Positions 9,770-33,067 of a stretch of 64,000 bases of DNA are shown in pieces. The notes under the pieces were generated by a model that searched no databases, was not told the origin of the DNA, and saw only the letters and a list, made by a program, of their open reading frames with translations. The first letter of the stretch is position 1. Each line of letters starts with the position of its first letter. This DNA comes from Methanoculleus frigidifontis (GTDB lineage Archaea > Halobacteriota > Methanomicrobia > Methanomicrobiales > Methanoculleaceae), in contig NZ_VCYH01000001.1 of NCBI RefSeq assembly GCF_030464345.1, forward strand, positions 434,001 through 498,000, given 5' to 3'. The position numbers and the translations under genes are program-made.

Positions 9770-10561
9770 TCACGCCGACGGTCTGACCGCCTCGACCTCG
9801 AGACGCACCATGGGGACGCGAATGCGGCCGTCGGGCGACGGACATCGCCGGACGTAGCGGTCCGCAAGGCCGGCAACGAACGCCGGCCGCGCCTCTTCGG
9901 GCAGCCGCTCCAGGTACAGGTGCCAGGTGGTCCGGATCCACCCGGCAAGGCCGCTCTCCTCTTCAAGGACTATGTCTTTTGGGATCAGTTCGACCCGGAG
10001 GGGCGTGAGCCCTGCCTCACGGAGCCGTATCTCCTCTTCTTCAGGGCCTTAAAAGGCGTAGCCGTTTGAAAAACCTGCGAAATATTCTCGCCAGGGCCCC
10101 TCCGTCACCATCTCGTCCGCGAGCGCGAGGATCGGCGCGGCGTTCCCTCTCCCGCCCATCTGGAGCAGCGCTCTCCCGCCGGGCCGGAGTGCACGCCCGA
10201 TGCCTGCAAAAACCCTGCCGTGGTCGGTGACCCAGTGCAGGGCGGCATTGGAGAAGACCACGTCGAACTTCCGCTCAAACGGCAGGTCGAGCATGTCGCC
10301 TTCGACGAACCGGAGGTTTTGGTACTCCTCCGGGGGCAGGCGCTGCCGGGCGAAGGAGATCATGTCGCGGGATACGTCCATGCCGAGCACCGAGCCGCGG
10401 GGCAGCAGGGCCGCGATCTCCGCCGTCACCTTCCCCTCGCCGCACCCGAGATCGAGCACTCGCTCGTCGCCTGCAAGCCGGAGCTTTGCGAGTAGCTCCC
10501 GGGCCCACGCCTGCTGAGCGGAAGAGTGCCGATGATAGTCCTCAGGATTCCATATGTGCAC
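9770..10561 (-). pseudogene. SAM-dependent methyltransferase (trans-aconitate methyltransferase-like) with internal stop
   Basis: A class I methyltransferase related to trans-aconitate/malonyl-ACP-type enzymes. It has HIWNPEDYHRHSSAQ at the N-terminus, motif I VLDLGCGEGKVT, GMDVSRDM, FDVVFSNAALHWV and LRPGGRALLQ. Translation stops at a TAA (10049-10051) after GFSNGYAF. The same frame continues without interruption for about 93 more residues of normal family C-terminus (LREAGLTPLRVELIPKDIV ... ) to TGA at 9770. The lesion is therefore one nonsense codon, probably from a Tyr codon. The GTG at 10561, with GGAGG ten bases upstream, is a better start than the open upstream frame. It is tail-to-tail with the broken ApeA-like gene, the two stops being three bases apart. 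Confidence 0.8.
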
Positions 10562-16638: not shown

Positions 16639-17363
16639 AGCATCTTCACCGTATATGCGTTCTTTGCCCCGCTCTTCCATAAAGCCTCGCCTGTCCGGCG
16701 GCAGGTCTACAATCCCTGAAACATTGTTTTCCATCTTCATGTATGAGGAGGGTGTCCGCGGCTTATGTCTTCACAAAGGCGTGCCGCACCCTGCTGCCCC
16801 GTCAACGAATGTCGAAGAGAGGTGTGCGTGATTCATCCGGGCGTCTCGCAGCTGCACGGTGGCAGTCTGCCTCTGCCATTCTGCTGTTTTTGAGCGCTTT
16901 TACATGCTTTCACATCATTTCTGACCGTCTTGGGATTGTCGATTCTCCGGGATGAGCACTGCCTCGAGAGCACGCCCCACGCCTGCTGTCATGCTGGCAT
17001 CAGGTAATTTTGCGTGATACTGTATATGAATCACTTTTATAAAATTAAGGCGGATAAAAAACACGCCAATCGGCAACGGCCCTCTCTCACACCCCTGATC
17101 ACCCTGATCGTGAGGGAAACCTTTATTATATATGAGTCGATCTCTGTTGCGTCCATAAGTATGTCCATAACTATAACGTGGACGGCCGGGGTGTCAGCGT
17201 TCCTTCAGGCCAGGAGCGGATAGGGGCATACTGCACCCGGAGGCAGCGTCGAGACCGGCATTCCTGCAGGATCTCTCCATCATGGCGAAAAGCAGCCTCT
17301 TCAGGGTACCATGTGGTACAAAACTCTCCCGTGAGAGGAGTCACGGGATCATATGGGGGGAAC
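16639..17363. other. Long intergenic region and structured leader before the glycan island
   Basis: No protein gene is supported over 725 bases. Bases 17010-17070 are AT-rich. A strong TATA-like run (CTTTATTATATATGAG, about 17126-17141) points toward the DUF354 gene and predicts a leader of about 200 bases. The leader holds the direct repeat GTCCATAA at about 17151 and 17163, a perfect 14-base palindrome GTACCATGTGGTAC (17306-17319), and a perfect 8-bp stem TCCCGTGA / TCACGGGA with loop GAGGAG (17327-17348) just before the ribosome-binding site. A regulatory RNA leader is possible. Confidence 0.45.
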
Positions 17364-18548
17364 ATGAAAAATCAAAGTTTGCTGCCGAAAAAGACGTCTA
17401 TCGACAGCAATTATCCATCAGGACCCGGCTGTCTGGAGTATGGACAGCCCGTTGGCGGTTTCCCCGCCAGATCACTTCCGCAACCGTATTCTGAAGAATT
17501 CGTCATTCACCCGGCACCCGGTAAACGGCGGATATGGATCGACCTTATCAATCCCTCCGATGTGCTGTTTTTCAATGCGTTGATGCATGACCTCACCGAC
17601 TTCCAGATAGCCGTGACCTACCGGGAACGTGCAGAGACCGTTCATCTGGGGCATTCATTCGGGATTGAAGGGACGATAATCGGAAGAGATGGGGTACGGC
17701 CGGTGAGTAAGATCCTTCTCATGGCGGTTCGGACCGCGCAATTACTCACATCCGCGAACCGTTTCGACGTGTCGATGTCCTTTGAGAACGGAATGAGCAC
17801 ACTCATCTCGAAAGTGCGGGGGAAGACCTCGTTTCAGTTCTGCGACAACGATCTCAAGTTCATCCAGAAGACATCCCTGTACCAGGATCTCGAGACGAAG
17901 ATCAAACTGTCTGCGGACTATCTGGTCATCCCGCGTGCGTGCTCTGATACCTTCGGCAGGTACGTGGACGACGAGAAGATCGTAGTATATGATGGCTACA
18001 AGGAGGACATATACCTCGCAGACTACACCCCGGACGCTCGCTTTCGGGAAAAAGTGCCATACGAACGGTTTGTCGTTGTACGGCCAGAAGCCCTTGACGC
18101 CTTCTATGTGAAAGAGAAGCGAAGCATCGTTCCGGCGATTATCAAAGGCCTGGTGCGCGAAGGAATGAACATCGTTTATCTCCCGCGAAACGGGAGTGAC
18201 CGCCGGCATGTAAACGGCTCCTCGCAGGTATTCATCCCTGACGCCTCGCTCCACGGCCTTGACCTCTGCCACTATGCGGATGCCGTGCTGACCGGATCGG
18301 GGACGATGGCCCGTGAAGCGGCATGCATGGGAAAAAAATCGGTATCGTTCTTCCCGAGCGAGCACCTTCTCTCGGTCGATCGGCAGCTCGTCGACGACAG
18401 ACGCGTCCTCCACTCGCGAGACCCCGAAGAGATCGTGACGCATGTTCTGGATTCCGGGAGACCGCAGCAGCGGGTGGACCGGGATGCGTCACGGCTTGTG
18501 AAGCAGTCGATCCTGAACCAGATGGAGTCGATCCTTGCCGGAGAGTGA
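17364..18548 (+). CDS. DUF354 family GT-B-like glycosyltransferase
   Basis: A 394-residue protein. The DUF354 (PF04007) signature starts after a 50-residue extension: RRIWIDLINPSDVLFFNALMHDL, then TYRERAETVHL. The C-terminal GT-B half carries HYADAVLTGSGTMAREAACMGKKSV, equivalent to the UDP-sugar-binding end of GT-B folds. The family is found in archaeal surface-polysaccharide clusters and resembles UDP-GlcNAc 2-epimerase/GT-B proteins. It is probably a cytoplasmic glycosyltransferase or epimerase-like enzyme. The start at 17364 has GGGGGGAAC upstream. It is the first gene of a tightly packed cluster to 23.6 kb. Confidence 0.85.
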   Translation: MKNQSLLPKKTSIDSNYPSGPGCLEYGQPVGGFPARSLPQPYSEEFVIHPAPGKRRIWIDLINPSDVLFFNALMHDLTDFQIAVTYRERAETVHLGHSFGIEGTIIGRDGVRPVSKILLMAVRTAQLLTSANRFDVSMSFENGMSTLISKVRGKTSFQFCDNDLKFIQKTSLYQDLETKIKLSADYLVIPRACSDTFGRYVDDEKIVVYDGYKEDIYLADYTPDARFREKVPYERFVVVRPEALDAFYVKEKRSIVPAIIKGLVREGMNIVYLPRNGSDRRHVNGSSQVFIPDASLHGLDLCHYADAVLTGSGTMAREAACMGKKSVSFFPSEHLLSVDRQLVDDRRVLHSRDPEEIVTHVLDSGRPQQRVDRDASRLVKQSILNQMESILAGE

Positions 18549-18552
18549 AGAG

Positions 18553-18660
18553 ATGATCGCAGACAAGCCGGTCTCCGGAATCGGCATGCGGGCAGTGCCG
18601 GAACACTCGCCTCTGGGTGCGGAACATCTCGTCCCGGGGCTCGCTGGAGGAGGGCAATGA
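18553..18660 (+). CDS. Possible 35-residue small protein
   Basis: A short open frame (MIADKPVSGIGMRAVPEHSP...) exactly fills the gap between the DUF354 and GT2 genes. It begins four bases after the DUF354 stop behind GAGAGTGAAGAG, and its TGA overlaps the GT2 ATG (ATGA). No family is recognised. The tiling suggests either a real coupled microprotein or the scar of a lost gene. The Gly/Pro-rich sequence without hydrophobic or helical pattern keeps confidence low. Confidence 0.3.
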   Translation: MIADKPVSGIGMRAVPEHSPLGAEHLVPGLAGGGQ

Positions 18661-19601
18661 CCTATATCCTCATCACACCGGTAAAGAATGAAGCTGCAGT
18701 ACTGAAACAGGCTTTTGCCTGTATCCTCGGCCAGACGGTTCTGCCTGCGATCTGGGTACTCGTCGACGGCGGGAGCAGCGACGGCACGCTCGAGCAAATC
18801 CGGGAGCTGCAGGAGCGCCACGCCTGGATATACCTGAAGCAGCAGGAGGCCTTCTCGGCGCGTCAGGGGCACCTGAACTTCGCATTCGGCGTGTGGGAGG
18901 GATACGAGTATGCACGGCAGATCGCCCGTGAGCGGGGCATCGAGTACGACTACGTCGGCAAGACCGATGCAGACGTCCTGCTGCCGGGAGACTTCTTCGC
19001 ATCGCTCATCCGAAGGCTGGAGGAGGATGCCGGGATCGGTGTCGCAAGCGGGGCGTCGTATACGCTCAGGCCTGGCGCTCCCCTTCCCTCTCCCGATGCG
19101 ATCGGCGAAGCCCGGTTTGATCGCGACTACTTCCTGCCCTACGAGATGCCCGACAAACGGGTATACCGCAGAACAGCCCTCGAGCAGATCGGCGGATTCC
19201 CGGTGACGACCTTCGCTCCCGATAGTGTCGCCCTCGCAAAGCTTCTGACCAGTGGATGGCGTGTCGTGTCCTTCGGGGATGTCGGGATCTACAACCTGCG
19301 AAAGGACACATCCATCGAGAAAGACCGCTGGAAATCTTCGCTCCTCCTGGGGTATGAGAGTTACTACCTTGGCTGCCATCCGCTCTACGTGCTCATCAGC
19401 GGGATGTACCACCTGACGTCACCCTCGCAGTACAATGGCTTCGGGCTGATGATTGGCTATGCATCGGCCATCGTGCACCGGGAAGAGAAGATCGACGATC
19501 GCGGCGTGCGGCGGTACTACCGGATCACCCGGTTCGCAAAACTGAACCGTGTCGTTGCAACAGAGGTGCGACGGACGCTATCCCGTTTTCTCGGGAGCTG
19601 A
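18657..19601 (+). CDS. Family 2 glycosyltransferase
   Basis: A 314-residue GT-A fold glycosyltransferase without membrane segments. The N-terminal strand is YILITPVKNEAAVLKQAF. The nucleotide-binding VLVDGGSSDGT follows, then KTDADV (about residues 100-105) as the DxD metal site. FAPDSVALAKLLTSGWR is the acceptor-side ED-like region. It should add a sugar from a nucleotide donor to a lipid-linked glycan in the cytoplasm. A strong GGAGGAGGG precedes the ATG. It sits between the DUF354 gene and the large membrane protein, consistent with surface glycan assembly. Confidence 0.9.
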   Translation: MTYILITPVKNEAAVLKQAFACILGQTVLPAIWVLVDGGSSDGTLEQIRELQERHAWIYLKQQEAFSARQGHLNFAFGVWEGYEYARQIARERGIEYDYVGKTDADVLLPGDFFASLIRRLEEDAGIGVASGASYTLRPGAPLPSPDAIGEARFDRDYFLPYEMPDKRVYRRTALEQIGGFPVTTFAPDSVALAKLLTSGWRVVSFGDVGIYNLRKDTSIEKDRWKSSLLLGYESYYLGCHPLYVLISGMYHLTSPSQYNGFGLMIGYASAIVHREEKIDDRGVRRYYRITRFAKLNRVVATEVRRTLSRFLGS

Positions 19602-19604
19602 TGA

Positions 19605-21539
19605 ATGGGTATCGCATACACGACTGTTGCCATCGACAAAATCGTCGTTCTGCTGGTATTCCTCACCGGCTGCCTGATCTGTGCGGTATCGGTGCAGCAT
19701 CACCTGCAGCAGGAGTACATCGGCGTGACCCTCATCGGCGCGAGCCTTGTTTATCAGGCATTTCGCAGCCGGTTGCTCCGTTCCGGTTTTCCTTCAGAGA
19801 TCTGCCGCTCGAAATCTCGTATGTTCGTCGCCTGCGGCATCGTGTTTGCTCTTCTGTTTACCCTCTCCCTGCTCGTTCTGCGGCTTGAAGCCTACCACCG
19901 GCCCGCAGCCTTTTTCCTGCTGGTATCAGGCATGGCGGCACTCGTGGCGCTGCAGATTATGGGTGCCCGGACCGGGTTGGGTACGCTCCTGATACTGCTT
20001 GAAATCTTCGGTCTTTCTGCCCTCATCCGTTCGAGCCTCTATTATCTCTTCCCTGCTCTGCACGGTGTCGATCCCCTGTACCACTTCGGCCTCGTCACAG
20101 AGATCCTGCAGAACGGTTCTTTTCCCGCTGCCGGCTACGAAGCATACGCGGACTTCCCGCTTACGCATTACCTGCTTGCCGTTCTGGAGAGCGTTGCTCT
20201 CATGGGACTGAAGAACGCCTTCTTCGTGCTGGGCGTCCTGATGATCGTTAGCACACTCTTTGTCTTTCTCATCACCAGAGACCTCTTTCACGTAAAAGCA
20301 GGACTGCTGGCCGTCCTGCTGCTCAATATGTCGAGCTGGCACATCCTGTGGAGCGTCGACATCACCCCGATGTCGCTCGGGACAATCCTTTTCCTGGTGC
20401 TCCTCTTCCTGGTCTTCAGCAGAACGCTCTCCTCGGGCGGACAGTTCTCTCTGGTATCGATTCTCATCTTCTTCATTGCAGCAGTGGTTGTCTGCGTACA
20501 CGTCATCCCGACGATCGTTCTTTTCGTGGCATCCGTCTCGATCCTTGCCGGGGCACTGGCGCAGAGATTCAGCATCAGGAACCTGCGGATTGGAGCAGCG
20601 CAGATCCATCTCAACAGTAAATACGCAGCGTACTTCGGGCTCATCACCATTCTCTACTGGCAGCACGCGTACGGCACCGAAACCCGATCCTTCTATGAAA
20701 AAGTCGTCTTCTCCGTCTATGACTCCCTGCAGGGAGCAGCCATCGGCAATGTCGGAGCCGTGACACAGATTGCAAAGTTCGATCTGCTCCAGATTGTCCT
20801 CGACAACCTCGGGTATGCGCTCCTCGTCGCTCTCATGCTCCTCGGGCTCTTCAGCGTCCTTGCGCATGAGAACTCCCGTGGAACCGGCGTCACGCTGCTC
20901 GTCCTCACCGGCGCCCTCTTTGCGTTCATCTATATCCCCGCTCTCGTCGGATCGAATGCAAGCCTTCCGCACCGCTGGTTTTTATACGCATACGTTCCGG
21001 CATCCATTCTCGCCGCTATCGGCTGCTGGTCGATGCTCGCTATTCTGAAACGGCCGGGGGCGAAGATCGCCGCTATCACCGCCATCGCCCTCTGTTTTAC
21101 GTTCTTCATGACGACGAACTCTCTCGTCAACAGCGACAGTCCCCTCTATCCGAATGTCCGCGAAGATTCCATCACATGGGCACGGGAATACTATTACGAC
21201 TCGGAGGTCTATGCCGGCCGGTTCCTGGCAAAACGCAGTTGTAACGACAACATCGTGACCGACGGGCGGTTCACCAACGTCTTCACGGAATACTACGGCT
21301 ATGAGTGGGTGTATCCCATGTACCCGTCGGATCCGGGCTCCTATGCGAAGGGAGTCGTTCTCCTGCGGGAGAACGTCAGAAACGGCCGCATCGTCGACCG
21401 GCCTACCGGATACGTCTACACCTACGAGAAGGCTCCGAAGGCATTCCTCGACGGGTTCGAGGGAGCCCGGTACACCCGGGCCTACTCGTCGTCGAACGTC
21501 ACGACCTACGTCCCCTGCCCGAGCTATGAGGTGCATTGA
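19605..21539 (+). CDS. Polytopic membrane protein, possible GT-C or glycan polymerase
   Basis: A 644-residue protein with about 12-13 hydrophobic helices over residues 10-500 and a C-terminal soluble domain (about 500-644) that should face outside. Layout and position fit GT-C type glycosyltransferases or O-antigen-polymerase-like proteins. After the fourth helix a loop has HGVDPLYHFGLVTEIL, the kind of Asp/His-rich first extracellular loop seen in such enzymes. I see no definitive OST (WWDYG) motif. The gene starts three bases after the GT2 stop and ends overlapping the deacetylase start. The role in elongating or transferring the glycan is inferred from context. Confidence 0.7.
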   Translation: MGIAYTTVAIDKIVVLLVFLTGCLICAVSVQHHLQQEYIGVTLIGASLVYQAFRSRLLRSGFPSEICRSKSRMFVACGIVFALLFTLSLLVLRLEAYHRPAAFFLLVSGMAALVALQIMGARTGLGTLLILLEIFGLSALIRSSLYYLFPALHGVDPLYHFGLVTEILQNGSFPAAGYEAYADFPLTHYLLAVLESVALMGLKNAFFVLGVLMIVSTLFVFLITRDLFHVKAGLLAVLLLNMSSWHILWSVDITPMSLGTILFLVLLFLVFSRTLSSGGQFSLVSILIFFIAAVVVCVHVIPTIVLFVASVSILAGALAQRFSIRNLRIGAAQIHLNSKYAAYFGLITILYWQHAYGTETRSFYEKVVFSVYDSLQGAAIGNVGAVTQIAKFDLLQIVLDNLGYALLVALMLLGLFSVLAHENSRGTGVTLLVLTGALFAFIYIPALVGSNASLPHRWFLYAYVPASILAAIGCWSMLAILKRPGAKIAAITAIALCFTFFMTTNSLVNSDSPLYPNVREDSITWAREYYYDSEVYAGRFLAKRSCNDNIVTDGRFTNVFTEYYGYEWVYPMYPSDPGSYAKGVVLLRENVRNGRIVDRPTGYVYTYEKAPKAFLDGFEGARYTRAYSSSNVTTYVPCPSYEVH

Positions 21540-22582
21540 TGCAGCAGCGCACTGCAGTGCTGGAGCTGCTCCGGCAGGATACCGACATCTGGGACATCTT
21601 CACCCGGAAAGAGGAGTATGATTCCGGCTTCCGTGACGGCTTCGGCCGCTTTCCGCACTACCTGAGTTCGTCCGGGAGCCCGTTTGAACCCAGCGTCTCG
21701 GAGTACCTGCACGACCGCGGCTACAGGATCGAATATCCGGACGGCCATCCCTTTGCCGTCTGCCTGACGCACGACATCGATACCGTCTATCAGCCCTCCA
21801 TCGCCAAGGCGTATACTGCCCTGCGGTCCCTGAAGTCAGGAGACCTCCCGGGAGGCCTTGCCGGCATTCTGCAGCTACGGTCAAGAAAACTCCCTCTCTG
21901 CAATTTTCGGGATATTATGGCGCTCGAGGAGCAGTATGGCGCAACCTCCAGCTTCTACTTTCTGGCTCTTGCTCCCGGCGACGAGGACTACGCGTACGAC
22001 GTCAGGGAGCTTGAGGCGGAGGTCGGGGCGATCGCCGATGCCGGCTGGGAGGTCGGGCTCCACGGCGGCCACCGGGCATACTGCGACCTGCAGCAGCTGC
22101 AGGCCGAGAAGAAACGGCTGGAGGCGGTTCTCAACCGATCGGTTGTCGGCTACCGGAACCACTTTCTCAGGTTTCAGGTCCCAAAGACCTGGCGGTGCCT
22201 CGCCGAAGCGGGGTTTGCATATGATACCACCTTCGGCTACGCCGACTGCGTCGGGTTCCGGAACGGGATGTGCCACCCGTTCCGGCCCTACGACCGCACC
22301 GCCGGCAGGGAGATCGAGATTGTGGAGATCCCCCTGGCAGTTATGGATGTCACGCTGGACATCTATATGCGGCTTGATGCCCGGAGGGCGTGGGAGATTA
22401 CCCGCCGCATCATCGATGCGGCCGAGCGCTGCCGGGGTGTCGCCACCATCCTCTGGCATAATACGTCCCTGGGAGACGGGCAGCGGAGGTTCTATGAGAA
22501 GATCCTGAAGTACTCTGCGGAGAAGGGGGCATGGATGACGGGCGGTGCGGAGATAGCCCGGGTATGGAGGAACCATGACTAA
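21539..22582 (+). CDS. Polysaccharide deacetylase family protein (NodB-like)
   Basis: A 347-residue protein with the NodB/CE4 layout. FAVCLTHDIDTVY gives the catalytic Asp and metal Asp (residues about 79-82). WEVGLHGGHRAY supplies the metal His pair (about 179-186), and a C-terminal ILWHNT provides a late His. There is no signal peptide, as in several archaeal and XrtA-type EPS cluster deacetylases that act inside the cell or on lipid-linked intermediates. The start is the ATG overlapping the preceding TGA (TGATG). The stop overlaps the FemAB-like gene by eight bases, so the three genes are translationally linked. Expected chemistry is N-deacetylation of a GlcNAc-type residue. Confidence 0.82.
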   Translation: MQQRTAVLELLRQDTDIWDIFTRKEEYDSGFRDGFGRFPHYLSSSGSPFEPSVSEYLHDRGYRIEYPDGHPFAVCLTHDIDTVYQPSIAKAYTALRSLKSGDLPGGLAGILQLRSRKLPLCNFRDIMALEEQYGATSSFYFLALAPGDEDYAYDVRELEAEVGAIADAGWEVGLHGGHRAYCDLQQLQAEKKRLEAVLNRSVVGYRNHFLRFQVPKTWRCLAEAGFAYDTTFGYADCVGFRNGMCHPFRPYDRTAGREIEIVEIPLAVMDVTLDIYMRLDARRAWEITRRIIDAAERCRGVATILWHNTSLGDGQRRFYEKILKYSAEKGAWMTGGAEIARVWRNHD

Positions 22583-23564
22583 AATTGACGTCCGGGAGGT
22601 GCAGAGCGATGAGTATCGTGCATGGGACCGCCTGGCCGTGGATTCTCAGCAGGGCACGGTCTTTCATATGAGTGACTGGATACGCACGTGCGCCTCTCTA
22701 TCGCGTACGAGCGCACTGCCGGTCGGCTATTATGAGGACGATATCCTGACGGGGGGATGCCTGCTCTATGTTCGAGCAAAATTCGGTCTTCTTCACTTCG
22801 CCGACTCCACCGCACGATTGACCCCGTATGGGGGGTATCTCCTCCCAGAACCCGTCAGCACCCGGGTGCGAGAACGAGAGGGGCTGAACCGATCGATTAT
22901 TCTGGGTATCGCGGACGAGATCTCCAGGATGGGTTTTATCGATGTGAATATCGTCAACACACCGGCATTTCAGGATATCCTGCCGCTCACGCGGAACGAC
23001 TGGGCAAGCCGCGTATACTATACGTACATGCTCCCCCTGGTTGCAGATGTCGACTCCCGGCTCTCGAAGAAAGTGCGATGGGCCGTCCGCAAGGGAGAGA
23101 AGAACGGTATTCGTATCGGGAAATGCTATGATCCGGAGGTCTACTGGGATCTCAGCATCCATACCTATGCGAAGCAGAACCGCAAACCCCCGTATACAAA
23201 GGCGTTCCTGACAGGCATGCTTGAGATGATCGCGGAGAATACCTTCGGCGAGATGTGGATCGCGAGGATGCCGGATGGAGAAGCGATCGCTGCCGAAGTG
23301 ATCACCTGGAGCGGCCGCACGGCAGATCGATGGTCCGCCGTATCAAATTCTGCCAGGGGGGATACGGGTGCAACATCACTCCTCCTCTATGGGATATTTC
23401 AGGACCTGTGGGAACGAGGATTCGTGAGCATTAATTTAATGGCCGCCAACACGCCGAACCTCAGTACATTTGTTTCGAGCTTCAATCCGGAACTGGTCCC
23501 GTACTACGGCATCGAAAAATCGCGGTTCGGATTTGGTCTGGTAAAACCATCCCTGATGCCATAG
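22575..23564 (+). CDS. FemAB-like GNAT acyltransferase, copy 1
   Basis: A 329-residue protein of the FemAB/Acetyltransf_6 type (two GNAT folds). Hallmarks are GTVFHMSDWIRTC near the N-terminus, SRLSKKVRWAVRKGEKNGI before the second domain, and the C-terminal GATSLLLYGIFQDLWERGFVSINLM with NTPNLSTFVSSFNPEL. FemAB proteins use aminoacyl-tRNA or acyl donors; in EPS clusters they are thought to modify the sugar chain. A distant paralog lies at 29720-30730. The gene overlaps the upstream deacetylase, and a free amine produced by deacetylation would be a logical acceptor. That last link is inference. Confidence 0.8.
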   Translation: MTKIDVREVQSDEYRAWDRLAVDSQQGTVFHMSDWIRTCASLSRTSALPVGYYEDDILTGGCLLYVRAKFGLLHFADSTARLTPYGGYLLPEPVSTRVREREGLNRSIILGIADEISRMGFIDVNIVNTPAFQDILPLTRNDWASRVYYTYMLPLVADVDSRLSKKVRWAVRKGEKNGIRIGKCYDPEVYWDLSIHTYAKQNRKPPYTKAFLTGMLEMIAENTFGEMWIARMPDGEAIAAEVITWSGRTADRWSAVSNSARGDTGATSLLLYGIFQDLWERGFVSINLMAANTPNLSTFVSSFNPELVPYYGIEKSRFGFGLVKPSLMP

Positions 23565-23656: not shown

Positions 23657-24832
23657 TTAGCCCGCAGCACCCAGAGTGACTGTCTCTAGAAAACCCTTGA
23701 GTTTCTTCATCTTAACCGACCAGTCAAGGTGCTCTCGGGCATATGTGCGCATCTTCTGTGGGTGATCGGCATCGGCGCAGACCTCGCCGGCGAATGCCAG
23801 AATGCTCCTGATGTCGATGGGGCTTTCGTCGGGAGGAACCCTGAGGATATACGGGAAGTCTGCAGAGAAGTCAGGATCGGCGCATGCCATGATGTACGGG
23901 ATTCCCCGGGCGCAGTACTCCCGCGCCTTCAGTTCGGCCGTCTGCGTCAGCCCTTTCCGGTGCATCCCGAGGCTCCCGACGGCCACATGGCACCGGTCAA
24001 AGAGGGCGCTTAAATCCTCGCCGGCCAGAAACCCGTGGAAGACCACCCGCTCGCTGATGCCGAGGTCGCCGGCCAGGCTCCGCAGGCGGGGGATCTCGGG
24101 GCCGCCCCCGGCGATGTGGAGTGCGATCCCGGGCATCCCGCTGCAGGCGGCAATGCCCCTGATGAGACGGTCGAGACCGTGCCAGCGGCTTACGTTTGCG
24201 ACGCAGAGGATTCGGAGCTCCCCATCGCGCATCGCAGGGGCGTCCCGCTGCGGGACCGAGTCGACGGCAAACCCGTTTTCTATCGTGACATGGGGTATGG
24301 AAGAAGAGCCCGCCCGTTTCACCTGATATGCCGTGATCTCATCGGTAACCCCTACAATGCCGTCGATTTTCCGCCGCAGTATCCTGCCGAAGAGGATGTC
24401 GTGCAGGGCGATGAGATACTCGCCACTTGACCACCGCTCCCGGCTTTCGATGCACTGGAACTCGACAACCAGCCTGCAGCTTCGGGGTCTTTGCAGCGAG
24501 CGTATCGTTGAGATCGAGAGCGGGGGAACCCTGCAGTAGATGACGTCTGTCGGACCGAGCAACGCAAAAAGGTCGCGGAGAGCCTGGTTTATGCAGATGT
24601 CGCGCCGGAGCAGAGCGCCGAGGGTCATGCCCGGATCGCAGGCGGTCTTTGGACGGCTGTAGAAGATCTGATCGGGGGTTACTTCTCCCGGTTCCAGGCC
24701 GGCCCGGTCTCTGAAACTGAATATCTTTGCATCGACGCCCAGGCTCTGCAGGGAGCGTATCTGGGCGATCATCTTCTTCGAGACGCCTGGTTGAGCCTCC
24801 TCGAGCGGTCTTGTGAAATAGACGACCCGCAT
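23657..24832 (-). CDS. Family 4 glycosyltransferase
   Basis: A 391-residue GT-B glycosyltransferase. MRVVYFTRPLEEAQPGVSKKM forms the N-terminal Rossmann start. The C-terminal half carries LRILCVANVSRWHGLDRLIRGIA, ALHIAGGGPE, VVFHGFLAGEDLSALFDRCHVAVGSLGMHRKG and the Glu-type ELKAREYCARGIPYI motif. It should use a nucleotide sugar in the cytoplasm. The start at 24832 is chosen because a TATA box (GTATAAAGAG on the minus strand, about 30 bases upstream) predicts a leaderless transcript; the frame is open further but lies in this promoter. It follows the flippase gene on the same strand. Confidence 0.87.
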   Translation of the reverse strand: MRVVYFTRPLEEAQPGVSKKMIAQIRSLQSLGVDAKIFSFRDRAGLEPGEVTPDQIFYSRPKTACDPGMTLGALLRRDICINQALRDLFALLGPTDVIYCRVPPLSISTIRSLQRPRSCRLVVEFQCIESRERWSSGEYLIALHDILFGRILRRKIDGIVGVTDEITAYQVKRAGSSSIPHVTIENGFAVDSVPQRDAPAMRDGELRILCVANVSRWHGLDRLIRGIAACSGMPGIALHIAGGGPEIPRLRSLAGDLGISERVVFHGFLAGEDLSALFDRCHVAVGSLGMHRKGLTQTAELKAREYCARGIPYIMACADPDFSADFPYILRVPPDESPIDIRSILAFAGEVCADADHPQKMRTYAREHLDWSVKMKKLKGFLETVTLGAAG

Positions 24833-24935
24833 ACAGGAATCTTCAGAGGCACTACTCTTTATACTGGTTGTGGATCCGGCAGCGCCGATCCCCGCTGCGG
24901 AGCGCTGCCATGCCGTTTCTTTCAGTGGGAGCATG

Positions 24936-26309
24936 CTATTCGGCTCCCGGAGTGGGATGGTCGATGATTCGGGCGCTCTCCTCCTTCTCGATCAGGCCTT
25001 TTTCGAGTATGACCATGATTGCGAACCAGACGAGGCCGTATACCGCAACTGCGGCCACCGCCCCGACAAGATTGAATGCCTGCGTGAACAGCACCAGGAG
25101 GGGAAAGTAGACGGCCAGACTCAGGAGGTGAACCTGGAGCGTCATTCTCGGCATCCCGATCGACGCCATTGCAGGCGCAAGAGGAAAACCGAAGATGGCG
25201 ATGATCATTGTCGCCATATAGAGCACCGCGATCGGATACGCCTGAATATATGCCGTTCCGAAGAGGAAGCTGATGACGGGTGCGCCGAAGAGGGCGAACC
25301 CGAGCCATATCCCCGCTGCCAGGCTCCCGGCAACGATCCCCGACCGGATGATGAGGCGTTTGAACTGGACGATCTCTTGTTTTGCCCAGAGATGTGAGAG
25401 ATCCGGATAGATCGCCTGGTAGAGCGGGTCAGAAAGCATTGCGGGTATCCAGCCCAGCTGCTTGGCAATCTTGTAGATCCCCGCTCCCTCTGCGCCGACG
25501 ACGCCGCCGATGAGGATCGTGTCCACCTCCCGCGACCCGAGCAGCACCGAACTGTTCAGGTTCGTCGCCACGAGAAACCCCACGAGGCCGGGCGAGCGGG
25601 CGATGGACTCGTTCAGCGGCGTATTGAGGTATTCCAGATAGCCTCGCCGGGAGAGTTCGCGCCACCCGAGGATCAGGAGCAGCAGGTATCCCGCGACCGT
25701 TGCGACCATCCATACGATAAGGACCAGCCACAGGCCCGCCCCGAGGGCGAGGACGACGAGGATCCCGATGAACCTGATGACCGCCGATACGATGTTCTGA
25801 ACGGCAAAGAGCCGGAACCGCTTGAACAGCCGGAATATGCCGGTCGGGACGCCGGAGAGATTGAAGAGCATGACCAGGCTGTAGAGAGCCGCCATACGCA
25901 CCGTCTCCGGGTTCCAGGCAAACCACTGGCCGAGCAGTACAACAGCAGCAATGGCGATGAGGGTTCCGATGCATGCCGTGGCGAAATCCAGCAGGGTGCA
26001 GAATTTGACGAGACCCATGAACCGGTTGGGTTTCCCGTCTTCCAGTGCCTCTGTGCCGTACTTGATGAGCGCCGTCCATGACTGGAAGTTTACCAGGGCA
26101 TCGATGATGAAGGCAAACGTGGTGATGAGGACGAAGATGCCGAACTGTTCCGGGCCGAGCAGCCGTGCGGTGATGGCATATGTGATGAGACCGAGCACCC
26201 AGGCGACCATGTTGCCGGTGAGAAGCGTTCCGGCGTTCTGAAAGAGATGCCGCAGCAGGTCTTCCTCAAACCACCGGAGTACTCTGCAAAATCCGAGTTT
26301 CCCGATCAT
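24936..26309 (-). CDS. Wzx/MATE-type polysaccharide flippase
   Basis: A 457-residue membrane protein with about 12-14 hydrophobic helices, of the polysaccharide biosynthesis/MVF-type flippase family. Family features include TGNMVAWVLGLITYAITARLLGPEQFGIF near the N-terminus and a mid-protein VDTILIGGVVGAEGAGIYKIAKQLG. Its job would be to move the lipid-linked glycan across the cytoplasmic membrane. The start at 26309 follows GGTGAGG with six bases spacing; an ATG four codons earlier is possible. It lies between a hypothetical membrane protein and GT4, both on the minus strand. Confidence 0.88.
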   Translation of the reverse strand: MIGKLGFCRVLRWFEEDLLRHLFQNAGTLLTGNMVAWVLGLITYAITARLLGPEQFGIFVLITTFAFIIDALVNFQSWTALIKYGTEALEDGKPNRFMGLVKFCTLLDFATACIGTLIAIAAVVLLGQWFAWNPETVRMAALYSLVMLFNLSGVPTGIFRLFKRFRLFAVQNIVSAVIRFIGILVVLALGAGLWLVLIVWMVATVAGYLLLLILGWRELSRRGYLEYLNTPLNESIARSPGLVGFLVATNLNSSVLLGSREVDTILIGGVVGAEGAGIYKIAKQLGWIPAMLSDPLYQAIYPDLSHLWAKQEIVQFKRLIIRSGIVAGSLAAGIWLGFALFGAPVISFLFGTAYIQAYPIAVLYMATMIIAIFGFPLAPAMASIGMPRMTLQVHLLSLAVYFPLLVLFTQAFNLVGAVAAVAVYGLVWFAIMVILEKGLIEKEESARIIDHPTPGAE

Positions 26310-26412
26310 ATGTGCCCTCACCGGCTGTGACGCTCATCGGCGTGCAGACACATGCAGGCTGTCCCGGTGAAACGTTCGCGCCGCATCGATACCTCCCCGT
26401 CTCAGCTCTTCG

Positions 26413-27555
26413 TCAGCTCCGGATATCCCCCGCCTTTCTCTGAACCCTGTCCCGGTGGTCGATCCGTCCTCCCCGGTGACGCTTCAGGAGCGATTGCAGG
26501 GATTCCGCTGCTCCGGAATTTGAGGGCAGATGCTGATCCTCCGGAGACTGCAGGATCTCGTTCAGATTCAGGCGAGGCTGGGATGCTCTGATCTCGCTCA
26601 GGTCCGGGAGTGGCTGCAGGATTTCGTTCATGTCCGGGTGAGGCTGGGAGGATGCCCTGATCTCGCTCAGATCCGGGAGTGGCTGCAGGATCTCGTTCAT
26701 GTCCGGGTGAGGCCGGGATGCCCGAACCTCGCTCGGGTCCGGGAGTGGCTGGGGCGCCGGGGACTCGTGAGAGTGGACGGAGGACGCGGGCATTCTCTCC
26801 ATGAACCGAACCTGGAGGTGAAGCGACCGGTCATCAGGGTTAATCGTCACCCTGTCGATCGTCGTGACCTTCCCCATGCCTTTCGCAAATGCACAGGCGA
26901 CCAGACTGCAGATGGGGCAGGGGGATATCGTGCAGCATTCCGGTTTTTCTGCCCGGGCAACAGCGCAGCCGGAGAAGAGCCGGTAGCCGATGATATCAAC
27001 GAAGACCCGATCGCTGACCTGCCTGCCGGTTACTTGATCCGCAACCTCAAGTGTGTCGGTGAGGATCTCTTTCAGGGCAACAAATATCTGAGATTTCTCT
27101 GATGGGAGGGCGAGAGCATGGTTCTCTTCGAGATGCTTGAGGAGGGGAGCGGCTGTCGGGGGCAGGAGGATGCCGTGGCCGGATCTGTCGGCGGTCAGGG
27201 AAATATCCGGCGGAAGCCCTCCCCCGTCTGCAGGCACAAACTGTCGAACCTCTCTGTCAGGAGGGATAAAGAAGGCATTTCCTTCTGCATTGAGGCCGGT
27301 GCATGCCTGCGAGGCAGCATACGTATACGTGTACGAGGATGCAAGGCAGCTGGCGAGCTCCGGATTGACCGGGTTGTCGCGGCCGAGGGTGACGGCGAAA
27401 GCTCCCCCGACCAGGCAGGCTATTCCTGCGAGGGAGAGTGTGGCTCTCGTAGTGTCCCCTACCTCGGTGAACAGTATGCATAAGAATGCGAGAAGCGCAG
27501 TCGCGAACAGAAGGATTCCCAGAACTCCGGATTTCGGATGCGACAATATACCCAT
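26413..27555 (-). CDS. Hypothetical membrane protein with C-terminal tandem repeats
   Basis: A 380-residue protein with two TM helices near the N-terminus (about residues 9-30 and 38-57). A region of about 190 residues follows that includes a Cys-rich patch (FSGCAVARAEKPECCTISPCPICSL), then a basic tail. The last 110 residues hold three copies of a 22-residue repeat centred on NEILQPLPDLSEIRAS. The family is not recognised. The Cys patch could bind a metal or form disulfides. RBS GGGAG is four bases before the ATG. It sits inside the glycan island, so a role in export or chain-length control is possible but unproven. Confidence 0.65.
   Translation of the reverse strand: MGILSHPKSGVLGILLFATALLAFLCILFTEVGDTTRATLSLAGIACLVGGAFAVTLGRDNPVNPELASCLASSYTYTYAASQACTGLNAEGNAFFIPPDREVRQFVPADGGGLPPDISLTADRSGHGILLPPTAAPLLKHLEENHALALPSEKSQIFVALKEILTDTLEVADQVTGRQVSDRVFVDIIGYRLFSGCAVARAEKPECCTISPCPICSLVACAFAKGMGKVTTIDRVTINPDDRSLHLQVRFMERMPASSVHSHESPAPQPLPDPSEVRASRPHPDMNEILQPLPDLSEIRASSQPHPDMNEILQPLPDLSEIRASQPRLNLNEILQSPEDQHLPSNSGAAESLQSLLKRHRGGRIDHRDRVQRKAGDIRS
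26556..26755 (-). repeat. Three tandem repeats of about 66 bp
   Basis: Three head-to-tail units of about 66-69 bp inside the preceding gene. The shared core on the plus strand reads CTCGCTC followed by TCCGGGAGTGGCTG. Unit 1 is the most diverged. They encode the NEILQPLPDLSEIRAS repeat. Confidence 0.85.
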
Positions 27556-27977: not shown

Positions 27978-28188
27978 CAGCAACGACTGCTAATCCATAT
28001 TACTTAAATTTATCTCATCAGCGGCTCTCCGGTGAAATGGCCGGGATAATCGGGAGGCTGCTGGCTTCCGGAGCCGCAGGCCACGTATTCCGGAAATCAC
28101 ACCGAATCTCGCCGTAAAGCAGTGTCCGGGCGATACTGGCCTCCCTAAACCGGCGGTTTTCAGAGCCCCGGCCTGTGGAAAGGTATAT

Positions 28189-29433
28189 ATGAAACATGCG
28201 CCAGTCTCCTGCATGCTTCATTCCGGGACGGCAGAGGGGCTGAAAGGGCAGACATCCTTCATTGAACTGGTATACGGACACCTCACAGACTATAAGCATC
28301 CCGCCGGTACAAACGAGGAGCACCTGCGGGCGGTGATGGTGTGGCTCTGCAGCGCCCAGGACGCAACCGGGTGCGGGGGTGTCGCTGCAGCCTACTATCC
28401 GTACGTGGGCTGGGCACCCCCCTATCCCGAGGTCACGGGGTACATCATTCCGACGTTCCTGCATTACGCGGCGTTTTCGGGGGACGGCAGATACATCGAA
28501 CGGGCGATCGGCATGGGGGAGTGGGAGCTTTCTATCCAGATGCCGGACGGAGCGGTGCGGGGAGGATGGGGCATCAATGACTACCCGCTTGTCTTCGACA
28601 CCGGCCAGGTCATCTTCGGCTGGCTCTCCCTGTTTGAGAAAACCGGGCGGGAGGAGTTTCTGGCGGCGGCAGTACACGCGGCAGACTGGCTGGCCGACTG
28701 CCAGGACGCGGACGGCAAATGGTCCCGTTTTGTATACAAGAAGATCGCGACGACCTACCACACCCGTGTGGCCTGGCCGCTGCTCCTGGTCTACCGGCGT
28801 ACCGGTGACCCCCGGCACCGGGATGCGGCAGAGCGACATCTCCGCTGGACGCTGGATCAGGTGCACGAGGACGGCTGGATCGACAACATGGGTTTTACGC
28901 AGAGCAGGCCGCCGTTCACCCATACCATCGCCTACACCCTGGAGGGGCTGCTTGAGTCCTCACACTCCGTCCCGGAACCCCTGGCCGGCAGGATCCGCGC
29001 CACCGTCCGGCGGGCATGCGACGCCATCATGGAGAGCTACAACCGCCACTATCCCCTCCCGATGCCCGGGACGTTCTCCCGGGGATGGCGGCCGTCGCAC
29101 CGTTACACCTGCGTGACCGGCGATGCACAGATGGCAATTCTCTTTCTCCGGCTCTATCAGCTCTTCGGCAGTCCGCAATACTCCGATGTCGCTGATCGAC
29201 TGTTGCAACAGATCAAGGAAGTCCAGTGCCGCACCTGTGCGGACGCCGGGATCCGGGGAGGGCTGCCCGGTTCGTGCCCGATCTGGGGAAGGTACCGGCG
29301 ATTCTCGTACCCGAACTGCGGACCGAAGTTCTTCGCCGACGCGCTTATGCTCAGAGAGAGCATCGTGCAGAATCGGTGCATCGATCCCGTCTACCGGCCG
29401 TTTCACGGTGCCCCTTCTGCCGCCGGCTTTTGA
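28189..29433 (+). CDS. Alpha/alpha-toroid protein, possible polysaccharide lyase, hydrolase or epimerase
   Basis: A 414-residue soluble protein built of repeated helical pairs: FLHYAAFSGDGRYIERAIGMGEWEL, then a similar VHAADWLADCQDADGKW, then RHRDAAERHLRWTLDQ. The pattern fits an (alpha/alpha)6 toroid, as in glycoside hydrolases, uronate epimerases and lyases. Conserved-looking His, Trp and Tyr residues (GWGINDYPLVFDTGQV, FTHTIAYTLEGLLES) line where the cleft should be. There is no signal peptide. It is found with deacetylase, FemAB and GT genes, so it probably acts on the same glycan or a lipid-linked precursor. The start is at the end of a GTATATATG box preceded by GGAAAGG; Met 28213 is an alternative. 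Confidence 0.7.
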   Translation: MKHAPVSCMLHSGTAEGLKGQTSFIELVYGHLTDYKHPAGTNEEHLRAVMVWLCSAQDATGCGGVAAAYYPYVGWAPPYPEVTGYIIPTFLHYAAFSGDGRYIERAIGMGEWELSIQMPDGAVRGGWGINDYPLVFDTGQVIFGWLSLFEKTGREEFLAAAVHAADWLADCQDADGKWSRFVYKKIATTYHTRVAWPLLLVYRRTGDPRHRDAAERHLRWTLDQVHEDGWIDNMGFTQSRPPFTHTIAYTLEGLLESSHSVPEPLAGRIRATVRRACDAIMESYNRHYPLPMPGTFSRGWRPSHRYTCVTGDAQMAILFLRLYQLFGSPQYSDVADRLLQQIKEVQCRTCADAGIRGGLPGSCPIWGRYRRFSYPNCGPKFFADALMLRESIVQNRCIDPVYRPFHGAPSAAGF

Positions 29434-29467
29434 TCGCTGGGCCACACCGTCTGACAGTAGAAAAAAT

Positions 29468-29690
29468 ATCATTTTCTCCCGTGATGCCAGATGTCTTTCA
29501 TGGACGAAGCAGTGCAGCCGATCCCGGATCATGCCGGGACGGTCTTCCGGGACGCGGGGGCGCACGGGCTCGAGCACGTCCTGCGGGTCACCCGCCTCTG
29601 TGAAGCGCTCGGCGCCCGTGAAGGCGCGGATATGATCGTCCTCATCGCGGCCGTCCTTTTCCATGGCAAAGCACGCACCTCCCTGCAAGC
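29468..29690 (+). pseudogene. Truncated second copy of the HD hydrolase gene
   Basis: From a Met at 29500 the frame matches the HD protein at 14917 through residue ~55 (VFRDAGAHGLEHV, RLCEALGAREGADM, LFHGKAR). The HD dyad has become HG, and the frame then runs into unrelated sequence. DNA similarity includes about 30 bases before the start (TTTTCTCCC ... CAGAT ... TTCATGGACG). Everything after about 29690 is lost; the 3' end of the FemAB-like gene on the other strand begins at 29720. It is a decayed duplicate, in the same orientation as the intact gene. Confidence 0.8.
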
Positions 29691-29719
29691 GTATGAGAGG
29701 CAGAAGATCTGCGCAGACA

Positions 29720-30730
29720 TTAAACCGGGATCCCATCGCCTCCGGCCAGTGCATTCTTCATCCGGTAGGGCAGCGCAGCCATCTTCGAGAGCAGAACAAC
29801 CCTCGAATAGATCGGTACATGATCTGCCCCGAAGTCTGCTTTTATCCGAAACCGGGTATTGGTCGGGTCAAGTTTCTGCCGGCCGAGGAATATCGTGTCG
29901 TATCCGTTGTTCCACGCCCAGACAAGCCCCTCCCAGAAGAGAGGATAGGTAGGGTGAAAGGTGCCCGGCAAGTTTCGGTTCAGGGAAAGGTACTGAAAAT
30001 ATGCCGTCCTGCCGGCCGGGTGCAGAAAGGTGAGCAGCCCCCCGGCGTAGAGATCACCCTTCGCCAGCGACGTTATCCGCATATCAGCCGGTGAGAACGT
30101 CTCCAGAAGTCTCTGGAAGAAGGAAAGCGGCAGGATATCTCCCTGCATCCGCGTGAGGTTCTCGACGTAGTAGCGGTAAAATTGTTGTATCGCCTCTTCG
30201 CGGCAAATCTCCCGGATTGTAAAGCTCTTCTCATCGAATCTGCGGATGAATTTCCTCTGCCCTTTCTTTGCAGGGAAGCTCTCCCAGATGCTGTCGGGAG
30301 GTCTCTGGCGCAGGTTGAGAATCATGTTGCCGGTATCATCTGCAGGGTAGTGGTCGTATCCGATATGATCCACCAGCGACGCTTCATTCACGTTCAGAAA
30401 AAGATATCTGTATTTTTGCGCGAACAGGGAGAGTATCGCGTTCAGATCATGGGGATTGAAATCGGTATCCAGCAGGATGCTATTGCACTCGGAATACGGG
30501 ATGGGATCCAGCCCTTTCAGAAACGGCAGTCTTCGGGTCTTCGAAGGGAGAATCCCGACTGCTTCCCGGCCTTTGTAGAGTATCCAGTACTTCAGATCGA
30601 GGTTGAGCGCATCCTCGAGCACGCTCTTCCATTTCAGGCTGTGGAAGAACGTCCCCTCCGGGGACCGGTTGTTGAACGATTCCCAGACCGCTGCATTCTC
30701 TTCCGACAGTTCCTGCAGGGAATATTCCAT
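29720..30730 (-). CDS. FemAB-like GNAT acyltransferase, copy 2
   Basis: A 336-residue FemAB/Acetyltransf_6-type protein. GTFFHSLKWKSVLEDAL at the N-terminus, KKGQRKFIRRFDEKSF before the second GNAT fold, and PTYPLFWEGLVWAWNNGYDTIFLGRQ near the C-terminus are family features. It is distantly related to the protein at 22575-23564. It is likely a modifier of the same surface glycan. A TTTTTTATACC box on the minus strand about 25-30 bases before the ATG indicates its own leaderless promoter, so it is not simply part of the upstream unit. Its 3' end abuts the truncated HD copy, suggesting it arrived with, or after, a recombination event. Confidence 0.78.
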   Translation of the reverse strand: MEYSLQELSEENAAVWESFNNRSPEGTFFHSLKWKSVLEDALNLDLKYWILYKGREAVGILPSKTRRLPFLKGLDPIPYSECNSILLDTDFNPHDLNAILSLFAQKYRYLFLNVNEASLVDHIGYDHYPADDTGNMILNLRQRPPDSIWESFPAKKGQRKFIRRFDEKSFTIREICREEAIQQFYRYYVENLTRMQGDILPLSFFQRLLETFSPADMRITSLAKGDLYAGGLLTFLHPAGRTAYFQYLSLNRNLPGTFHPTYPLFWEGLVWAWNNGYDTIFLGRQKLDPTNTRFRIKADFGADHVPIYSRVVLLSKMAALPYRMKNALAGGDGIPV

Positions 30731-31007: not shown

Positions 31008-31568
31008 TCAGATCCGTTTCAGCCAGGCTTCCCTCCAGAAGAGCAGGCACGACCTGTCACAGTTATTGTGCCGTTTCCCGTCGCAGTACACCCCCTCCAG
31101 AAATACGGTGGGACTTCTGAGCTTCCGTACTTCACCGTTGGATTCAAGGGTGATTGAGCGCACTTGCTTAAACACGTGGTATTCTTTTCCGCAGAAGGTC
31201 TTCATCTCAGGCATGAAGAGCAGACCTTTGTACTTCCCGTTTTCGTCGAGTGTAGAGCGGATCTCTTCCAGGGATCTGACCCGTACCCTGTCGCCGGGCT
31301 GCAGGTTGAGCACGTCGTCCACGGGCAGATCCCCGGTATGCATGCTGGCTGGTAGATCTTTGGCGTGGGCGGCGACACTTGCAGGAGAGATCACCTGCAG
31401 AATCCGTTTTCCCACCGGAGTGACGTATGGAATCTGTTTCACAGCAGATATCAGAGGAGTCTTGAGTGAATCGTTCCATGCCCTCTGTGTGAGCGATAGA
31501 TATGATGGCCGGGTAAACCCGTATACCTCCTGAACCATGAAGGTGCAGGGTATTGCATGTTCGTCCAT
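31008..31568 (-). CDS. Uncharacterised SH3-like protein with Cys/His-rich tail
   Basis: A 186-residue protein. Residues about 75-130 look like a small beta-barrel (GDRVRVRSLEEIRSTLDENG, then YKGLLFMPEMKTFCGKEYHVFKQV). The C-terminus has VFLEGVYCDGKRHNNCDRSC followed by FWREAWLKR. The spaced Cys-x4-His-x2-Cys-x3-Cys looks like a metal site. I recall similar LEG-V-C-DG-H-C-x-R-C-WREAWL proteins in bacteria near surface-lipid or secondary-metabolite genes, with no proven function. The start at 31568 has GGGGGAAAT upstream. It is the last gene of the glycan island on this side. Confidence 0.65.
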   Translation of the reverse strand: MDEHAIPCTFMVQEVYGFTRPSYLSLTQRAWNDSLKTPLISAVKQIPYVTPVGKRILQVISPASVAAHAKDLPASMHTGDLPVDDVLNLQPGDRVRVRSLEEIRSTLDENGKYKGLLFMPEMKTFCGKEYHVFKQVRSITLESNGEVRKLRSPTVFLEGVYCDGKRHNNCDRSCLLFWREAWLKRI

Positions 31569-31819
31569 ATTTCCCCCATATTTCGTTGGACACCACCGGT
31601 ATACTTCAGGGTCGTGCAGAGTGCAGCCACGCACGCGTGTACCCTTCAGCCAATCGCATGATCAGCAGGAGCCTCCCGGTATATCCGGGTTTCAGGACGC
31701 CATATTATATATTATTTGCTGCGGATGCGCCTCTGTGCTGCTCTGCAGTAGAGGCGGCAGGAAGATCGGTTTCTCTCTTCGCCCGAGCGCCATATCTCCT
31801 CTATTTCTCCTTTCTGCTG

Positions 31820-32083
31820 CTATCCCCGCTCGATCGCCATCCCCTGCTCGCGGAGCGTCCGCTCGATCCCGTCGAGAAGTTCGGCATCGCCGAGGGCATG
31901 GTCGAGCATCGGGAACTTGCCCACCAGGGGTATCGCCTTGAAGAGCGCTACCGGCTGCTTCCCGCCGGCCTCGCCGGCGTCGCCGGGAGGGACCTGGAGC
32001 GCCGACCCGTCGGCGTAGACCGCGACGTTCCCGTAACCCTGTGCGTCCCAGAGCTTTCTGATGATATCACGCGTCGTTACCAT
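31820..32083 (-). CDS. Small conserved protein, copy 2 of a duplicated pair
   Basis: An 87-residue protein, nearly identical to the one at 16372-16638 and lacking only the final Val. The start Met, the upstream GGTGA and the ATATAC box are conserved, and DNA similarity runs to about 32150. Both copies lie on the minus strand and both sit downstream of an HD gene copy on the plus strand (1.3-2.3 kb away). The two loci therefore look like direct repeats around the glycan island. Function is unknown. Strong protein conservation with synonymous differences suggests both copies are functional. Confidence 0.75.
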   Translation of the reverse strand: MVTTRDIIRKLWDAQGYGNVAVYADGSALQVPPGDAGEAGGKQPVALFKAIPLVGKFPMLDHALGDAELLDGIERTLREQGMAIERG

Positions 32084-32239
32084 AGCATTTTCACCGTATA
32101 TGCCCTCTTTGCCCCTCTCTTTGATAAAGCCTCGCCTGTCCCGGCGCCGGAACCGCTCTATTGGAGACTGCCGGAAAGAGGACGCAAAACGAATGGAAAA
32201 GATGATATGCGCATCGGACTGTATTCCTGTTGTGTAACT

Positions 32240-33067
32240 ATGGAAGAGATCTCTTCTCTGGATATCTACGACGAATTCCGTGAGGAAATTCAGGCGATCT
32301 TCCGGTCGAGGCTGTTAACCCAGATGCTGGTCGCCCTGGGAAGCGGAGCGAAGTCACTCTCGGATCTCCGTGATATCACCGGCAGTTCCTCGCAGGCGCT
32401 CATCCCGAAGATCCGGCAGCTGGAGTCGGCTCATTACATCGAGTCCGAGCGGGGAGATTATGTCCTCACTCCCCTCGGCAGGATCGTGGAACCTGAGATC
32501 GAGCGGTTGGTGACACTGATGGGCGTGCTCCAGCGTCACCGTGATTTCTGGACGCAGCATGACATCGAGAGCATCCCGGCGGAGATGCTGAAAGAGATCG
32601 GCGACCTCTACAGCTCGGAGGTCGTCAGGGACGTTGAAGAGAATATATTTGCAGTCTATACCACGTTTTTGAACCTCTTGCAGAATGCGAAGTGGATCCA
32701 TGCCGTATCCTCGATAATGAGCCCGGCTCACGCTGAAGCGATGATGGGAACGGTGCGGCATGGGAAATCGGTCGAGCTGGTCATATCCGCAGATCTCGCA
32801 GACACGCTCATTGCCGACCCGTACAGCACCATGCTCCGGTCCCTGGAGGATTGCCACGATTTCAGGATTTATGTCTCTCCGGTCCCCGTCAGGCTTGGCA
32901 TGACCGTAACCGACAGCTGCCTGTCGCTCGGGCTCTATAAGCGGGGAACCGATGCCTACGATACCTCCGTCGATCTCATCAGCTTCGATGCGACCGCGAA
33001 CGCCTGGGGCGAGCGGCTCTTCCAGTACTACCGGCAGGTATCCGAACCGCTGGTTTACGACCCCTGA
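32240..33067 (+). CDS. FilR1/DUF1724-type winged-helix transcriptional regulator
   Basis: A 275-residue cytoplasmic regulator. The N-terminal winged helix (about residues 15-90) has the recognition region SLSDLRDITGSSSQALIPKIRQLESAHYIE and a wing ending YVLTPLGRIVEPEI. The C-terminal domain matches the methanogen FilR1-like DUF1724 sensory domain, with HDFWTQHDIESIPAEMLKEIGDL and a late beta-rich part. The family is specific to methanogens. The Met at 32240 matches the family start; 32207 is also possible. The UbiA gene follows about 150 bases downstream with two palindromic sites in between, which may be its target. Confidence 0.82.
   Translation: MEEISSLDIYDEFREEIQAIFRSRLLTQMLVALGSGAKSLSDLRDITGSSSQALIPKIRQLESAHYIESERGDYVLTPLGRIVEPEIERLVTLMGVLQRHRDFWTQHDIESIPAEMLKEIGDLYSSEVVRDVEENIFAVYTTFLNLLQNAKWIHAVSSIMSPAHAEAMMGTVRHGKSVELVISADLADTLIADPYSTMLRSLEDCHDFRIYVSPVPVRLGMTVTDSCLSLGLYKRGTDAYDTSVDLISFDATANAWGERLFQYYRQVSEPLVYDP

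Follow-up and report, generated by a model that had tools for sequence, protein, structure and literature searches.

The window is a stretch of 64,000 nucleotides from Methanoculleus frigidifontis and carries, on the minus strand, a small gene for a protein of 186 aa designated P0001. The preliminary description placed this gene in a glycan island, and its surroundings bear this out: a family 2 glycosyltransferase (GT2), a VimE-like deacetylase, two FemAB/GNAT-like genes, a group 1 glycosyltransferase (GT4) and a flippase lie around it. In order of position, the features are these (D1 and D2 denote the first and second repeats of tandem family members):

18657-19601, plus strand: glycosyltransferase, family 2 (GT2); PF00535, E 1.5e-10
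21536-22582, plus strand: sugar deacetylase-like protein (VimE-like); NF053580, E 1.3e-30, below cut-off
22575-23564, plus strand: second FemAB/GNAT-like gene of the island; PF13480, E 2.6e-9
23657-24934, minus strand: glycosyltransferase, group 1 (GT4); PF13692, E 8.1e-10
24936-26321, minus strand: MOP-family oligosaccharide flippase (Wzx-like); PF01943, E 6.8e-23; NF007773 below cut-off
26413-27555, minus strand: unassigned 380-aa protein, unmatched in Pfam and NCBIfam; 6 other loci have related ORFs
28189-29433, plus strand: 414-aa protein with weak GH127, squalene-cyclase and glucuronyl C5-epimerase matches
29720-30730, minus strand: next gene downstream of P0001, FemAB/GNAT-like transferase; PF13480, E 8.4e-7; TIGR03019 FemAB-like, 7.5e-17, below cut-off
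31008-31568, minus strand: family gene P0001, 186 aa, stop codon included; ATG at 31566-31568
31011-31313, minus strand: predicted SH3-like barrel domain, residues 86-186 (model pLDDT mostly >90; fold comparisons)
31047-31085, minus strand: tail C162-x4-H167-x2-C170-x3-C174 (three Cys 119/119; His 89/119)
31191-31193, minus strand: FCG-motif cysteine C126, a candidate ligand (110/119 single or D1 domains, 63/72 D2 domains)
31203-31217, minus strand: FMPEM motif, residues 118-122
31545-31547, minus strand: C8, linker cysteine, CTF motif (kept in at least 90% of 75 rows)
31573-31577, minus strand: GGGGG, possible ribosome-binding site just 5' of the ATG, by eye only

Relatives of the 380-aa protein are encoded at 7/88 loci, the window included. 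A DUF354 protein (17178-18548, E 2e-25) lies at the island edge. Two other window ORFs, 28960-29754 and 28018-28923, were taken as spurious: Pfam recognised neither, and neither has a relative elsewhere. On the other side of P0001 are a FilR1-type regulator and a UbiA prenyltransferase. The longest frame of the regulator (31553-33067) overlaps the P0001 start on the opposite strand; its true start is therefore probably later than the start of that frame.

The stretch 31008-31568 is a real gene, since it is conserved at the protein level (identities of 66-72% with near relatives) and its codon changes fall mostly in the third position: 85 against 40 and 27 in comparison with L002, 79 against 36 and 31 with L005. 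It is present in one copy in its own genome. The protein contains FMPEMKTFCGKEY, as first stated, and the C-x4-H-x2-C-x3-C tail followed by FWREAWLKR was read exactly; the tail runs C162-DGKR-H167-NN-C170-DRS-C174, then FWREAWLKRI.

The protein was first called uncharacterised, and so it proved. Nothing in Pfam matched P0001, nor did any sequence in the PDB; its one NCBIfam match (FliM, E 0.0074, far below cut-off) and its sole PHROGs match (PHROG 7488, E 0.097) are at chance level and were taken as such. Searches of the PDB with family profiles gave weak, short-stretch matches only, to designed DPBB proteins (best E 0.006), and a literature search found nothing on the family. An origin in phages or viruses was rejected: the phage search returned zero relatives, and of 19 pattern matches in viral contigs none encodes one.

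Relatives are encoded in 12/61 related genomes, the M. frigidifontis genome included, and in 3/246 genomes across the phylum; the distribution is thus patchy. The wider genome collection holds 385 loci that encode relatives. The best-scoring 80 of these were analysed, and they span methanogens, Bacteroidota, Acidobacteriota, Planctomycetota, Pseudomonadota and Actinomycetota, among others, so that the first mention of similar proteins in bacteria, and of a protein crossing domains of life, was sound. Longer relatives occur in plasmid records of Mesorhizobium, Bosea and Nonomuraea. Sampling around individual loci gave 13/297 genomes for the phylum of L050, 19/200 for the order of L035, 2/247 for the phylum of L024 and 2/14 for the order of L056. 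Judged by sequence, P0001 is a member of a conserved family, common to archaea and many bacteria, for which Pfam and NCBIfam have no model.

By the domain profile, archaeal members and some from bacteria have a single copy; most bacterial members have two in tandem. P0001 itself consists of a linker and one barrel. It carries the family signature (FxPEM-x2-[FY]C, then C-x7-C-x3-C with the WxExWL tail) and, upstream of the barrel, the linker cysteine motif (C8); in the alignment, its CTF motif occupies the position of the CQ[AS]TEL linker motif of bacterial members. Tandem hypothetical proteins encoded beside LPS/EPS flippases, such as WP_024505408.1 (Mesorhizobium ciceri) and WP_089172913.1 (Bosea), share the domain and cysteine motifs of P0001, and the flippase gene adjoins theirs; they differ in having two barrels instead of one, and F or Y in place of the tail His. 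A membrane anchor in P0001 was considered and rejected, its best hydrophobic stretch being too weak (0.9 over 19 residues). Some tandem-protein linkers reach 1.6 to 2.25, so those forms may contact the membrane.

In a tree of the domains, from which copies shorter than 70 residues or containing X were left out, the D2 copies lie on one side, the D1 copies form one group, joined by L054 (cut by its contig end), and the singles lie in between. Archaeal and Bacteroidales singles make up a supported group of 23 (98/85), in which four Bacteroidales copies (L024, L025, L032 and L033) are nested among those of methanogens. This nesting, in an alignment of 100 columns only, suggests transfer between domains of life. 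The clusters around these four copies contain sugar transferase and DegT genes. Two architectures stand apart: L023, from a Methanoregula MAG, has two adjoining single-domain genes (8989-9426 and 9800-10312), like an unfused tandem protein; and the tandem protein L139 has the full tail cysteine set in both repeats, unlike most D2 copies. The long upstream frame of L139 (an open frame of 602 aa in the locus) contains, as judged by eye, no recognisable added domain.

The small beta-barrel-like part of the preliminary description is matched by a predicted SH3-like barrel. AlphaFold models it confidently, both in P0001 (residues 87-186 mostly with pLDDT >90) and in a tandem protein (mean 89, pTM 0.87); the alignments used for the models (A5 and A6) left out L053, L056, L093 and a few others. 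Neighbours in Foldseek and VIA-align comparisons are SH3-like barrels, including those of nitrile hydratase beta, the Mind bomb REP domain and eL21. The C-terminal domain of nitrile hydratase beta is the top Foldseek match (E 4e-3 for P0001, 6.7e-4 for the tandem model; Z about 6). As scores are modest (no Foldseek E below 0.001 for P0001; best Z 7.8), the likeness is best regarded as one of predicted fold only. A nitrile hydratase subunit (PF02211) was rejected, as there is no Pfam match and the profile comparison gave 16% over 14 columns. P0001 may share its predicted fold with these barrels, and with PetP and the variable chain of ferredoxin-thioredoxin reductase (FTR), but it has a cysteine set of its own and no sequence-profile relation to nitrile hydratase beta.

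That cysteine set was counted across the family after second loci of the same genomes had been dropped (a step taken also before the tree and GNAT-adjacency counts), together with L012, a partial 81-aa frame with an internal TGA that is the only locus of its genome (G002); L053 and L054, with second halves masked or cut, were assigned by hand to the tandem or D1 class here and in the GNAT count, and L147 likewise in the GNAT count. The expectation that the tail ligands are conserved was borne out for the cysteines but not for the histidine. C162, C170 and C174 are each present in 119/119 single and D1 domains; H167 is kept in 89/119, and in 21/46 among singles, its place being taken in many homologs by Q, S, F, Y, L, W or a gap. 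C126 is kept in 110/119. A linker cysteine occurs as CQ in 71/72 tandem linkers, and the looser pattern C[QNTHV] is found upstream in 46/46 singles. The idea of His as a fixed fourth tail ligand is therefore to be given up: these counts argue that H167 is not one, and the FCG-motif and linker cysteines, kept far more often, appear the better candidates. Among 72 D2 domains, C162 and C170 remain in 69 each and C126 in 63; C174 remains in 5. Co-loss does not prove a single four-cysteine site, because D2 domains with I, L or S at C126 keep C162 and C170. Nor does C126 appear to be essential, as fused L035-like proteins have Ala or Phe there. We infer from these patterns that the linker cysteine, C162, C170 and C174 make up the best conserved set, to which C126 is additional. 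The FMPEM, C126-G127, CDG and WREAWL motifs are very highly conserved, and the charged residues D108, E121 and E180 strongly so. CDGSH iron-sulfur domains have the motif C-x-C-x2-[ST]-x3-P-x-C-D-G-[SAT]-H; P0001 has only CDG in common with it, and such a domain was rejected, since the C-x-C and the spacing are absent and Pfam gave no match.

The glycan setting extends beyond the window. Twelve glycan seed profiles, taken from the family loci, served as markers: one or more matched near 66/84 family loci, as against 4/40 control stretches, and two or more near 50/84 and 0/40, respectively. Near-identical Methanoculleus loci inflate the counts. The controls came from ten of the same genomes, at round positions chosen by hand, one of them about 24 kb from a family gene, and neighbour distances refer to stop-to-stop frames. 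The neighbour alignments (A3 and A4) cover 130 of the 158 immediate neighbours that were called; some were excluded for length, and all those of L017-L023 and L039 as short or from near relatives. For one survey, of 10 flank proteins, the neighbours were picked by hand. The proposed link to lipid or secondary metabolism was not seen as a main context in the neighbour surveys, most loci (66/84) being surface-polysaccharide clusters; a few have other neighbours, for example L060, where an AMP-binding enzyme gene adjoins. No glycan seed family occurs at 18/84 loci, so some branches may not be glycan-linked and may have another role. A DUF4910 gene is present at 13/84 loci, often with genes for PIG-L, a nucleotidyltransferase and a C-methyltransferase. 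The DUF4910 surface-carbohydrate cassette (CA_C2195 and kin) was proposed in PMC4000134, section 10 of which names no P0001-family protein; it is a partner gene set, not a relative.

Within this setting one partner recurs. The FemAB/GNAT-like transferases (PF13480, PF02388; XrtA-associated TIGR03019) are neighbours or fusion partners of single-domain members: 34/46 singles and 12/73 tandem members have a PF13480-type gene at most 1.5 kb away or share an ORF with one, and the same five GNAT seeds found nothing in 40 control stretches. PF13480 genes are rare, with 3-7 per genome in G000, G001, G008, G014, G022, G034 and G043, and one lies no more than 1.5 kb from the family gene in 5/5 other genus or family genomes searched (G001, G008, G014, G022 and G034). 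In G043 no PF13480 gene was found near the family gene, which sits near a contig end. The neighbour in the window (29720-30730) was found by hmmscan, not by the genome-wide PF13480 search. Five singles are in-frame GNAT fusions (L035, L188, L189, L190 and L191), all from the sample of the order to which the L035 genome, a Bryobacterales MAG, belongs. The L035 fusion (PF13480, E 6e-5, above cut-off) was refound as one 515-aa frame. L191 has a clear PF13480 part (E 1.4e-25) different from that of L035; the N-terminal parts of L188, L189 and L190 match that of L035 at E 1e-101 or better and have no Pfam match of their own. A tandem member, L056, is fused to a GT2 (E 9.7e-29); it and L035 come from MAG contigs. 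The recurrent adjacency or fusion expected of a GNAT accessory subunit is what was found, in 34/46 singles, five of them fused. P0001 itself differs from these transferases in having, by Pfam, no GNAT domain, which sits instead in the neighbour or the fused part. The four nested Bacteroidales singles, in their glycan clusters, have no GNAT nearby.

Fusion, adjacency and context therefore argue for an accessory part in GNAT/FemAB-type glycan modification, and for the tandem forms in glycan assembly more broadly. On balance, with confidence a little above even, we take P0001 to be an adaptor subunit, probably non-catalytic and perhaps with a bound metal, that serves GNAT/FemAB-type enzymes in modifying surface glycans. 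It would be an accessory subunit, probably cytoplasmic, of a surface-glycan assembly machine: one SH3-like barrel, its end probably pinned by the conserved cysteine cluster, most simply around a zinc ion. Its partner would be an acyl- or aminoacyl-transferase of the FemAB/GNAT-like (PF13480) type, encoded in the window by 29720-30730, which it would keep in place on the donor, or else on a sugar acceptor bound to the membrane. In bacteria, the tandem form would serve glycosyltransferases and exporters in the same way. The metal, the complex, the location and the choice of adaptor over enzyme are what we infer. The PF13480 GNATs are a large group, with substrates mostly not known, and the fusions make them a testable partner for an unnamed, strongly conserved protein that occurs in the surface-glycan islands of methanogens and of many bacteria from soil and sediment. 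Were the barrel to fix their donor or acceptor, this would offer a route to what these GNATs do and would reveal a glycan-modifying module common to archaea and bacteria.

Several observations count against an adaptor: the 18/84 loci with no glycan seed family, the four Bacteroidales singles with no nearby GNAT, the Ala or Phe at C126 in fused L035-like proteins, the retention of C174 in only 5/72 D2 repeats, and L188-L190 with their lack of any Pfam match. The conserved charges D108, E121 and E180 would fit an enzyme too. P0001 might, indeed, itself be an enzyme acting on a sugar or a lipid-linked one, its cysteines serving as ligands of a catalytic metal; the very high conservation of its FMPEM, C126-G127, CDG and WREAWL motifs is consistent with that, as is the usual nearness of family genes to sugar-modifying genes. 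This seems unlikely, however, for a small domain that matches no enzyme family, whose closest counterparts in fold are small barrels or subunits without catalytic activity, and whose D2 repeats degrade the cysteine set while the fold motifs persist.

Four to five conserved cysteines could also belong to a redox or iron-sulfur sensor, or to an electron carrier, that tunes glycan production, and the barrel does resemble those of the electron-transport accessory proteins PetP and the FTR variable chain. The barrels that it resembles are not known to carry a cluster themselves; the family is found in strict anaerobes and aerobes alike; and in the neighbour surveys no regulator or oxidoreductase partner stood out. 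This makes such a role very improbable. It is slightly easier, though still a distant prospect, to imagine an adaptor that binds RNA or a carrier and delivers aminoacyl-tRNA, or some other acyl donor, to the GNAT. FemAB enzymes use aminoacyl-tRNA, the domain has a basic pI (9.4; family median 8.3), and ribosomal eL21 is among the proteins of similar fold (Z up to 6.9); but a Z below 8 may mean just a common arrangement, the tandem forms mostly lack a GNAT neighbour, and for most PF13480 GNATs no donor is known. A bolder extension of the adaptor role, which we rate as quite unlikely, is a class of barrel adaptors spanning both domains of life through which GNAT/FemAB-like enzymes receive an activated donor, aminoacyl-tRNA perhaps; archaea and bacteria would then have a common, undescribed mechanism for adding amino acids or acyl groups to lipid-linked surface sugars.

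One single-domain branch (L038, L045, L037, L039 and L042) lies outside glycan clusters; the neighbour of L038 is a pentapeptide-repeat gene, and those of L037 are WD40 and TPP-enzyme genes. In some relatives the gene appears to be decaying: the copies L010, L013 and L022 (G024) look damaged, with the N-terminal part in another frame, a TGA, and C126 replaced by Y, and L012 (G002) is a short piece interrupted by a stop.
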